Source: an uncultured Spirochaetaceae bacterium (GTDB lineage: Bacteria > Spirochaetota > Spirochaetia > Treponematales > Treponemataceae). From it: DNA of 12,940 nt. This document shows positions 3,385 through 5,166 of the stretch, one piece after another. Made by a program: the position numbers and the translations under genes. Location of the stretch: assembly GCA_902796985.1 (NCBI GenBank), contig CADBRC010000159.1, positions 1-12,940 on the forward strand, written 5' to 3'. Within the stretch, counting starts at the first letter, position 1. Every line of letters begins with the position of its first letter. Below the pieces are notes generated by a model. That model was given only the letters and a program-made list of their open reading frames with translations. It was not told where the DNA came from and made no database searches.

Positions 3385-4002
3385 TTATCCTCGGTGGAAC
3401 AGCCCGTACAGTCCATGCCAGAATGCATAGTTCTTCGGCTTCACGACACTCGCGGGAGACAAATCCAGAGTGGAGTCAAACTGACTGCATTTCTCATCGT
3501 AGGAACCGCCCCATATCGTGTAGGCATTACAGGAAACACCCTGAGAATACGTCATGTCCACGAGCTTTATCAGGCCCCGAGGGCATTTGGAAAGGCAGTC
3601 CCCGCATCCGTCGCAGAAGATGTTGACAACGGCAGTCCCATTCATAATCGATATTGCATGCCGTGCGCATGCCTTGACACAACTGCCAAGACCTATGCAG
3701 CCATATTTGCATTCACCCTGCGTCTCAAACTGGGAATCATAAAAGGAACAGTCCGGCAATCCACGGTAGCCTTCCCCGTTCGCACCCATGCCGTGCTCCC
3801 GGGAACAGAGGACGACGGCCCTCTTGGAGGGCTTCTCCTTTTTGGCTTGCAGCAAGGGCTGGAATTCCTGCTCGGAGAAAAGCGGGTTGGAGGTGTTGAC
3901 CTTCTGGGCGTTCAAGGACGGGAGCAGAAGGTAAAAAATGAAGAACAGGACGCACGCGACGCTGAACAGGACGAGGAGCGTCATGAGGATTGAGAAAATC
4001 AT
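3385..4002 (-). CDS. rnfB: RnfB-like ferredoxin subunit, short form
   Basis: This 205-aa protein has an N-terminal membrane anchor (about residues 2-28), a linker, then a two-cluster ferredoxin domain with Cys98/102/108/112 (C-x3-C-x5-C-x3-C) and Cys130/133/136/140 (C-x2-C-x2-C-x3-C). These correspond to the RnfB core CKYGCIGLGSC...CDGCGDCLSKC. Cys66 and Cys85 match the extra pair seen before this core in clostridial RnfB. The N-terminal Fe-S domain (PF04060, GCG-x-P-x-C type) is absent and there is no second ferredoxin pair, so it is shorter than usual RnfB (often 190-330 aa). In Rnf, RnfB exchanges electrons with ferredoxin. Start choice: ATG 4002 overlaps the rnfA stop as ATGA and has a G-rich ribosome site 4 nt upstream; an upstream ATG at 4029 would add nine residues within rnfA. 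The rnfC-D-G-E-A-B order supports the call. Confidence 0.8.
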   Translation of the reverse strand: MIFSILMTLLVLFSVACVLFFIFYLLLPSLNAQKVNTSNPLFSEQEFQPLLQAKKEKPSKRAVVLCSREHGMGANGEGYRGLPDCSFYDSQFETQGECKYGCIGLGSCVKACARHAISIMNGTAVVNIFCDGCGDCLSKCPRGLIKLVDMTYSQGVSCNAYTIWGGSYDEKCSQFDSTLDLSPASVVKPKNYAFWHGLYGLFHRG

Positions 4003-4541
4003 TTTACCCCCCCGATGAATGAAAACCATGACACGTCGATGAAATGCAGGGCCAGAAGTATGACGGAGATGCTGATGAGAACAAGCCCGATCTTGTTGGA
4101 GAATTTCTTCCTGAGCATATAGAGGACCAGGATGGCAAAGAGGAAAGAGACCACGCAGAAACAGGCAATCAGAACGGCTTCAAACACGGAAGCCCCCTCC
4201 CCCACCCCGAGGAGAACGGAGAGGATGGAGGCTGTATACTCAGCCGTGCTCTTCCTGGTCGTAATCCTGACGACTGACTCTATAAATATGGAGATGGTGG
4301 AGAACACAAGGACCGCGATAAGCGGGTACAGCTCCGCCAGATGAACCGGTGCCAGCACCTCGCCCGCAACCAGGTAACTGATTGCCGTGGAGGAACTCAC
4401 GCTGATGAACATCTTGAGTGCACCCTCGAACAGTTTGCGGGGATGCTCGCTTATCATCATGGCCCGGTTTGTTCCCAGACCGTACACAAAGACGACACTC
4501 GTGAAAGCCACATAATACAGGAGCTCAAGCAACGCTATCAT
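3999..4541 (-). CDS. rnfA: RnfA-like integral membrane subunit lacking the conserved cysteines
   Basis: This 180-aa protein has about six hydrophobic segments and fits the Rnf-Nqr family (PF02508) by position between rnfE and rnfB and by remnants such as VVFVYGLG (17-24) and PLIAVLVFSTI (73-83). In canonical RnfA these two stretches contain GICPFLG and PLITTNCAVLG, whose cysteines hold a membrane [2Fe-2S] cluster with RnfE. Here the first has no Cys and the second has Val79 at the Cys position. The only cysteines are 127 and 129 in a later helix. ATG 4541 is chosen because GGAGG lies 8 nt upstream (4549-4553 on the minus strand) and the hydrophobic start matches RnfA. The longer frame to 4658 is merely rnfE overlap. 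It overlaps the rnfE end by 17 bp and the rnfB start by 4 bp. Homology is strong by context, moderate by sequence. Confidence 0.7.
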   Translation of the reverse strand: MIALLELLYYVAFTSVVFVYGLGTNRAMMISEHPRKLFEGALKMFISVSSSTAISYLVAGEVLAPVHLAELYPLIAVLVFSTISIFIESVVRITTRKSTAEYTASILSVLLGVGEGASVFEAVLIACFCVVSFLFAILVLYMLRKKFSNKIGLVLISISVILLALHFIDVSWFSFIGGVK

Positions 4542-5166
4542 CTGAGGCACCTCCGAGCAAATCAAATTTTCTGCGCAGCTTCCAGGCCAGGAAGAAAACG
4601 ATGAACACGAGCAGGATTGCGCCCGGGATGGACGCAAGGAATACGCCGACATGGGCATCCTCGCTCTGTGACAGGATGTTTATGCAGAGCAGTCCTTTCC
4701 GCCCTGGCAAGGTCAGCGTCCCGTATCCAAAGACATCCCGTATCAGGAAAAACACGAGGGCGATGGCAGAGAAAGAAAGTGACTGCCTGAGGTTGCCCCT
4801 GACCTCGCCCATGACTTCCAGCCCCGCGTCAGAGGGCCGCAGGCGGGAGATAATGAAGGAAGAGACAGCGGGAAGGTATATGATGAAAGAAACCGACAGT
4901 GCCATGAGAGGCGAATAGAGGGCAAGGAGCTGCTTGAAAATGATGCTCTCACAGAGCAGCATGGCGGCAGTCAGAACCGAAAGCAAATCGTTCAGGTGCA
5001 CCAGTTCCACCAGCCTGCGGAAGAGAGTTATGGAAACCATCTGCACATTCAGCAGAATGACAAGCAGAATACCATAGGCAAGGCGGCCCGGAAAGGGAAT
5101 GACCAGGGCGAATGACGCGAGCATGAAGCCGAATGCAGCTTCCTTCTCCATCCTGTATGTCCTCAT
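4525..5166 (-). CDS. rnfE: RnfE-like integral membrane subunit lacking the conserved cysteines
   Basis: This 213-aa multi-pass protein (about six membrane helices) has the same family as RnfA. The clearest match is LSFSAIALVFFLIRDVFGYG with the following T-L, which corresponds to the canonical GLGFTLAL...IREILGNGTL block. The canonical GLCPLLAV motif near the N-terminus appears as LASFALVIPF with no Cys. The canonical [15 protein letters not shown] appears as PLMALSVSFII (86-96), with Val92 at the Cys position. Cys72 exists in another helix but does not align with either site. The start ATG overlaps the rnfG stop (ATGA) and has GAGGAGG about 7 nt upstream. In Rnf the RnfA/RnfE pair spans the membrane pseudo-symmetrically and carries an electron through a shared [2Fe-2S] centre; this copy seems unable to bind it. 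Confidence 0.7.
   Translation of the reverse strand: MRTYRMEKEAAFGFMLASFALVIPFPGRLAYGILLVILLNVQMVSITLFRRLVELVHLNDLLSVLTAAMLLCESIIFKQLLALYSPLMALSVSFIIYLPAVSSFIISRLRPSDAGLEVMGEVRGNLRQSLSFSAIALVFFLIRDVFGYGTLTLPGRKGLLCINILSQSEDAHVGVFLASIPGAILLVFIVFFLAWKLRRKFDLLGGASDDSVA

Follow-up and report, generated by a model that had tools for sequence, protein, structure and literature searches.

An Rnf-type operon of spirochaetes without the membrane cluster cysteines of RnfA and RnfE: a possible old paralogue with kept machinery and no electron route

The window analysed here, a stretch of 12,940 nucleotides on contig C159 (CADBRC010000159.1) of an uncultured Spirochaetaceae bacterium (genome of 2.28 Mb, 76% complete), carries on its minus strand a compact gene set that resembles an operon for the Rnf complex. 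This set encodes, in order, a DUF212 protein, a membrane protein that we call X, an RnfC-like protein, an RnfD-like protein, a protein in the position of RnfG, an RnfE-like, an RnfA-like and an RnfB-like protein, and a GH57-like protein (locus labels L###, genome labels G### and family labels f## are identifiers internal to this analysis). The order of subunits, C-D-G-E-A-B, is that of Rnf; A, C, D and E are homologous to their Rnf counterparts, and the G slot is assigned by position only. Because the same genome also contains a canonical Rnf operon, on contig C198 (locus L001), the set in the window represents a second, paralogous Rnf-type operon. The two operons have the core subunits in common, but the operon on C198 has all four cysteines of the membrane centre (RnfE motifs GLC..PLIVVNC, RnfA motifs ALCP..LITTNC), the flavin motifs DAISSAT in RnfD and DAISGAT in RnfG, and the FdI motif of RnfB.

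The A-like and E-like proteins are true homologues of RnfA and RnfE by profile and by fold. The E-like protein aligns with RnfE (hhalign 95.8%, versus 0.1% for RnfA) and its first 11 Foldseek matches are RnfE or NqrD; with regard to the A-like protein, a profile search of PDB chains matches RnfA only, hhalign gives 53% for RnfA versus 0.2% for RnfE, and the best Foldseek/VIA matches are RnfA and NqrE. Both proteins show the six-helix fold of RnfA/NqrE and RnfE/NqrD. In a search with the Pfam model PF02508 (Rnf-Nqr; curated cut-off 23.8 bits), the A-like protein scored 13.6 bits, below the cut-off, and the E-like protein was not listed. The most conserved stretches of E-like proteins are PFPGR(L/F)AYG (residues 24-32), which falls in the region of the former helix-I cysteine, and LIRDxFGYGT (residues 141-150), which matches canonical LIRELLGGGT.

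All four [2Fe-2S]/Fe sites of the two proteins are devoid of cysteine, which bears out the central claim of a first-pass annotation of the window, i.e., that both have lost the membrane cluster cysteines, as well as its remark that a GxCP cysteine is missing from both. That annotation had also placed the two reading frames correctly and had read PLIAVLV (residues 73-79 of the A-like protein) and PLMALSV (residues 86-92 of the E-like protein) as former cysteine motifs; its assignment of Val79 and Val92 to the cysteine positions was, however, out of register. PLIAVLV belongs to helix III (69-91), with Val79 midway along it, the cysteine column is at Ser108, and PLMALSV matches the segment upstream of PLIVVNC. 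A canonical RnfE stretch of 25 residues aligns to the E-like protein without a gap (YSPLMALSVSFIIYLPAVSSFIISR), and PLM therefore represents the upstream Pro segment, with the canonical cysteine opposite Ser103. The former sites are thus Asn25 and Ser108 in the A-like protein and Leu16 or Ala20, together with Ser103, in the E-like protein; in the two relatives from family f10, the canonical helix-I cysteine of RnfE is replaced by Ala (L139) or Ile (L140). In agreement with the profile column, hhalign places the second cysteine of RnfA opposite Ser108, within a part of helix IV that is five residues shorter. In the structure models, helix IV of both proteins is predicted, with moderate confidence, to continue without a break past the former kink (residues 99-115 in A and 95-109 in E). 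The cysteines singled out in the first-pass annotation lie off the cluster sites, Cys127 and Cys129 of the A-like protein in helix V (119-146) and Cys72 of the E-like protein in helix III (59-84). The two helix V cysteines are nevertheless kept in many A-like sequences (Cys129 in 48/63, Cys127 in 36/63).

Pooled profile matches gave 92 distinct E-type sequences, five canonical RnfE and 87 others, and 64 distinct A-type sequences, one canonical and 63 others; in the canonical sets, each cysteine motif was found in 5/5. Cysteine occupies the helix-IV column of E (Ser103 in the window) in none of the 87 E-like sequences, as compared to 5/5 canonical RnfE rows in the same profile, and the helix-I column of A (Asn25 in the window) in none of the 63 A-like sequences, where N (41), D (6), E (6), L (4), H (3), S (2) and R (1) are found instead. 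The Leu16 column of E is likewise free of cysteine (0/87), and the residues at the E sites are mostly Ala/Leu/Thr and Ser/Ala/Val. The absence of cysteine from the E helix-IV and A helix-I sites is far beyond chance.

The loss extends beyond the A/E pair, for which the first-pass annotation had already suggested a coordinated loss; our data support that suggestion, and cofactor motifs are also missing from the C, D and B subunits and from the G slot (motif counts refer to divergent loci, with loci L088-L092 as canonical controls). The RnfC-like protein scores 158.9 bits against TIGR01945, under the cut-off of 245.95, and its profile matches RnfC of Clostridium tetanomorphum (7zc6_C) with E=1.6e-66. 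Its two [4Fe-4S] motifs are found in 32/32 divergent and 5/5 canonical loci, as well as in 7/7 and 7/7 of further locus sets. By contrast, the flavin mononucleotide (FMN) Gly loop (G.GGA.FP) and the ECEP motif are each found in 0/32 divergent and 5/5 canonical loci. The RnfD-like protein aligns with canonical RnfD along the length of its core (hhalign 99.6%), with Ala154 opposite the flavin-binding Thr, and the covalent-flavin motif D..[ST].[AS]T.L is found in 0/34 divergent versus 5/5 canonical sequences; outside the canonical sets, this motif occurs in two family f2 loci only, L141 and L146. A conserved loop motif, D170-x3-T174, is present in the RnfD-like proteins (D in 32/33, T in 31/33, with R in the T. 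pallidum-like locus L083). An earlier MAFFT alignment had placed T174 near the flavin site, but since L141 and L146 carry both the true flavin motif and the D-x3-T motif, T174 is not the flavin Thr; the residue is also kept in two genomes (G048 and G131) without ApbE, and this reading was rejected on both grounds. The first-pass annotation had described the gene order as kept, and the order is indeed retained, but the RnfG slot holds a protein with no detectable homology to RnfG (hhalign 0.6%), in which the flavin motif GA[ST] is found in 1/34 sequences (L021, outside an IT context) versus 5/5 canonical ones.

With regard to the B subunit, the FdI cluster domain is found in 0/22 divergent versus 4/4 canonical sequences, and the two [4Fe-4S] motifs in 13/22; the 22 sequences include four short ones, of which L010 is truncated where its contig stops. 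Among loci L003-L032, the place of RnfB is fully covered in 27 (L014 and L029 end before it and L010 inside it). It holds a cluster-free peptide of 104-122 amino acids in 3/27 (L008, L013 and L016) and no open reading frame (ORF) of at least 80 amino acids in 8/27 (L018, L019, L021, L022, L024 and L030-L032). RnfB across these loci thus presents as a stepwise decay, from two clusters through a short cluster-free membrane peptide to absence. The DUF212 gene is present in 25 of the 30 loci, the remaining five of which are truncated on the upstream side. Coordinates of all features are given in Table 1.

Table 1. Genes of the Rnf-type set and former cysteine sites of its A/E pair, in window coordinates.
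Feature	Position	Strand	Evidence
DUF212 protein (divergent PAP2), first gene of the conserved set	9513..9989	-	Pfam PF02681, E=5.2e-38
X, 481 aa, multi-helix membrane protein	8065..9510	-	syntenic in Treponema loci
RnfC-like, both [4Fe-4S] motifs, without FMN Gly loop and ECEP	6757..8061	-	TIGR01945, 158.9 bits
RnfD-like, without flavinylation motif; conserved D170-x3-T174-x3-N178	5690..6760	-	PF03116, E=3e-34
RnfG-position protein, one hydrophobic segment and outer domain, without flavin motif	5163..5693	-	
RnfE-like (NqrD fold), without cluster cysteines	4525..5166	-	hhalign, Foldseek
RnfA-like (NqrE fold), without cluster cysteines; start taken at 4541	3999..4541	-	hhalign, Foldseek/VIA
RnfB-like, N-terminal hydrophobic segment and two [4Fe-4S] motifs, without first (FdI) cluster domain	3385..4029	-	
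GH57-like (amylase/4-alpha-glucanotransferase type), last gene of the set	1336..3381	-	PF03065, E=2.5e-21; PF09095, E=1.1e-9; synteny
Leu16 codon of E-like, helix-I Cys position	5119-5121	-	hhalign
Ala20 codon of E-like, helix-I Cys position	5107..5109	-	by eye via relatives L139/L140
Ser103 codon of E-like, opposite canonical RnfE helix-IV Cys	4858..4860	-	
Asn25 codon of A-like, opposite RnfA helix-I Cys	4467..4469	-	
Ser108 codon of A-like, opposite RnfA helix-IV Cys	4218..4220	-	

Rather than a single odd Rnf in one genome, as the first-pass annotation had implied, the cysteine-less set belongs to an old paralogous lineage found across the family, next to a separate canonical Rnf in the genome under study. 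The E-like profile matches 235 of 274 family genomes and 123 of the 128 near-complete ones; the latter count is a lower bound because hmmsearch of the respective stretches of G032 and G002 recovered E-like genes that the genome-wide profile search had missed. PF02508 matches 144 of 182 genomes, including 108 of the 128 near-complete ones (one of the 144, G132, scores below the cut-off), and 19 of the 20 listed genomes without a PF02508 match carry the E-like gene, the exception being G088 (18 more such genomes stand outside this list). Named holders of the E-like gene include T. socranskii and T. parvum. The near-complete genomes G048 and G131 keep the operon, with no match to ApbE or FMN_bind. 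Reading frames are open and residues other than those of the cofactor sites are strongly conserved across the family.

A T. pallidum-like genome (G032; one contig of 1,139,633 bp) carries the set as DUF212-C-D-G-E-A-GH57, with X and B not found in it. A direct search of this genome gave no PF02508 match, and we found one RnfD match and one RnfC gene, which was matched in two stretches; elsewhere, the genome has ApbE and two FMN_bind matches. The divergent set is thus the sole Rnf copy found in this genome. Its D-like gene lies at 173919-174905 and spans position 174174, at which the accessible part of PMC7162541 places a variant of tp0151, the gene named rnfD in the portion of PMC11371664 available to us; on this basis, we take G032 to be T. 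pallidum, and tp0151 is, by position, the D-like gene of an operon of the window type.

Beyond this family, a class-wide search with the E-like profile matched 202 of 342 genomes, a figure not used as a count of systems because the weaker matches include canonical RnfE (e.g., G124:C158). C-like and D-like genes occur together in L093, L094 and L143 (f3), L141 and L146 (f2), L139 and L140 (f10), and L142 (f15). A-like and E-like genes follow by profile in L093, L094, L143, L139, L140 and L146; in L141, E is assigned by position only, and neither gene was found by profile in L142. DUF212 is present in L094, L140 and L146 and was not found in L093, L139 and L141-L143, the GH57-like gene is present in L094, L141-L143 and L146 and was not found in L093, L139 and L140, and X was detected by profile only in L139, L140 and, weakly, L143. 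Locus L144 is canonical (Gly loop and ECEP present) and was left out of the divergent counts. These sister families show the loss in stages. The Rnf-like set of L146 (G346:C15:145500-159500) is an intermediate: both helix-IV sites hold Cys, helix I of E has Ala, the RnfB FdI and RnfD flavin motifs are present, and RnfC is without the FMN loop; at helix I of A, a Cys is placed by eye, but the MAFFT alignment disagrees.

In Borrelia (f21), the set consists of DUF212, an X-like gene, a C::D fusion (at 7432-9744 of the plus strand in L147), an A-like gene and an ORF read as release factor 2. The C part of the fusion aligns with C-like proteins (hhalign 99.3%, E=4.8e-20), the D part gives a weak match (hhalign 24%, E=8e-4), and the A-like protein aligns with canonical RnfA (hhalign 73%, E=3.1e-5) and carries Glu and Ser in the cysteine columns. 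Among the 38 fusions returned (P0061-P0098), none has a C..C..C...C motif and none has the RnfD flavin motif including its Asp; loose [ST].[AS]T.L matches in 16/38 are TMATEL/TMSTEL stretches and do not represent the flavin motif. In Borrelia G309, an E-like gene (L149, 1400-807, minus strand; G309:C1:611800-614000) scores 26.6 bits against PF02508, over the cut-off, and has a single cysteine, which by eye lies outside the cluster sites; this gene is far from the C-D fusion and adjoins an ORF that by eye resembles a tRNA synthetase. A PF02508 match in Borrelia G412 falls in an unrelated ORF. In a tree of 52 C subunits, one branch (86/100) separates 21 canonical rows from 28 divergent and three Borrelia rows; this split is to be read as an open fork, and finer placement is unsure because of long branches and odd composition.

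These data lead us to favour, with middling confidence, a reading in which the set represents an old spirochaete paralogue of Rnf whose electron route through the membrane would have been dismantled while its protein machinery was kept. The part of this reading that concerns the transmembrane electron relay is very probably correct; the expectation of the first-pass annotation that electrons should not cross the membrane in the usual way is supported and, given the additional losses in C, D, B and the G slot, strengthened. Because the A/E cysteines, the FMN loop, the flavinylation motif, a recognisable RnfG and FdI are all absent, we infer that the complex should not be able to act as a ferredoxin:NAD+ ion pump. 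A few sequences weigh against a statement of clean loss: Cys is found at the helix-IV column of A (Ser108 in the window) in 10 of 63 A-like sequences and at the Ala20 column in 3 of 87 E-like sequences, and the family member L145 has a Cys at the E helix-I site.

The loss of the relay is well supported, whereas a new function is something that we infer. The mechanism that we prefer, still as a tentative proposal, is an ion-conducting or conformational one, in which the kept membrane core of A, D and usually E might form the machine together with X and the G-position protein, both partly outside it. Ion flow through the RnfD-like subunit would set the outer domains of X and of the G-position protein in motion, and these moving domains could do work in the envelope, i.e., Rnf run without electrons; clusters of the C subunit, where kept, might tune or stabilise the machine. 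In its furthest-reaching form, which we consider doubtful, a redox pump would have turned into a redox-free, ion-driven envelope machine, in which the conformational coupling known from NQR would run backwards, with Borrelia, which lacks the Fe-S motifs, as the end point and T. pallidum left without an Rnf electron pump.

The conserved [4Fe-4S] motifs of the C subunit, present in all three sets of divergent loci, could alternatively point to a residual one-way conduit, in which electrons would pass between these clusters and a flavin that the RnfD-like protein binds non-covalently, perhaps with a periplasmic partner, while the A/E-G branch is dead. The full-length alignment of the RnfD-like core and the conserved loop residues D170, T174 and N178 are consistent with such a conduit; however, the covalent-flavin motif is confined to the two f2 loci, T174 is not the flavin Thr, the missing FMN loop of RnfC leaves no known exit to NAD, and the Borrelia fusions lack Fe-S motifs, and we thus regard it as unlikely. 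The same motifs, i.e., those of C and in part of B, would also fit a sensor or regulator that faces the cytosol with its Fe-S clusters and uses the membrane as a scaffold, by analogy to RSX, which the accessible part of PMC12174285 presents as a reducer of SoxR; the clusters of C (and B) would then sense redox state, and the membrane subunits would serve only for anchoring or signalling. A pure anchor would hardly need the long-kept helices of A, D and E, though, and B is cluster-free or missing in a number of the covered loci and clusters are lacking in Borrelia, which makes a sensor improbable in our view. Outside Borrelia, either the sensor or the conduit might apply.

It is very unlikely that the complex still works as an Rnf pump in which Ser, Asn, Asp, Glu or His hold Fe or another metal and flavins come from other proteins. 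The mostly polar residues at the A helix-I site (N, D, E, H and S in most of the 63 sequences), the ApbE and FMN_bind matches in G032 and, as far as their accessible parts go, publications that propose a noncanonical RNF for T. pallidum would fit such a pump. Deka and colleagues reportedly proposed, in 2015, TP0171 as a flavin-supplying protein for T. pallidum. The E sites, however, are mostly Ala/Leu/Thr and Ser/Ala/Val, C also lacks its NADH/FMN motifs, the models of both proteins show no break in helix IV where the kink used to be, and G048 and G131 keep the set without ApbE or FMN_bind. We reject decay of a pseudo-operon, to which the lost cofactor sites and the absence of B, E or X from certain lineages might seem to point; judging by the open frames, the conserved non-cofactor residues, the presence in nearly all near-complete family genomes and the retention in Borrelia as well as in a genome of only 1.14 Mb, such decay would be hard to sustain.

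Compared to known Rnf complexes (RnfABCDGE; C. tetanomorphum 7zc6, A. woodii 9eri, A. vinelandii 8ahx), the window-type set shares homologous A, C, D and E subunits by profile, the fold of A and E, the gene order and the [4Fe-4S] motifs of RnfC, but lacks the A/E cysteine set, the FMN loop of RnfC, a recognisable RnfG, the FdI domain of RnfB and, outside f2, the RnfD flavin motif, and has X, DUF212 and GH57 as additional genes. Na+-NQR (NqrABCDEF) resembles it in the folds of NqrE (A-like) and NqrD (E-like) and in NqrA, which is described as free of redox cofactors in the accessible part of PMC12174285, much as the Borrelia C domain is free of Fe-S motifs; no counterpart of NqrF or NqrC was seen in the window operon. 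For T. pallidum, a noncanonical RNF-type redox system has been proposed as a flavin-dependent ion pump and as a source of the ion gradient (PMC7512555 and PMC11717252, as far as their available text goes). The D gene of that proposal, tp0151, belongs to an operon of the window type, in which the redox motifs of A/E, D, C and G are absent; if the only Rnf homologues of T. pallidum lack the membrane redox sites, this model of the ion gradient needs another pump. None of the titles and opening abstract lines in the literature searched describes an Rnf without these cysteines, from which absence from print does not follow. In many Borrelia species, the fusion carries the NCBI label 'RnfABCDGE type electron transport complex subunit D', despite its lack of the C..C..C...C Fe-S motif. 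The natural gradation that leads from full Rnf by way of L146 to Borrelia lends itself to separating the parts of Rnf/NQR that move ions from those that move electrons.

With regard to the remaining genes, X gave no match in Pfam and NCBIfam searches up to E=1; it is a conserved operon partner, and the Borrelia gene at the equivalent place aligns with it by profile (hhalign 61%, E=7.9e-5). The GH57-like gene is the last of the set in the T. pallidum-like genome as well. The set is flanked in the window by genes for a FemAB-type transferase (175-1350, plus strand), an arginine repressor (10138-10611, plus strand), an alpha-galactosidase (11945-10647, minus strand) and a citrate synthase C-terminal domain (12938-11961, minus strand).

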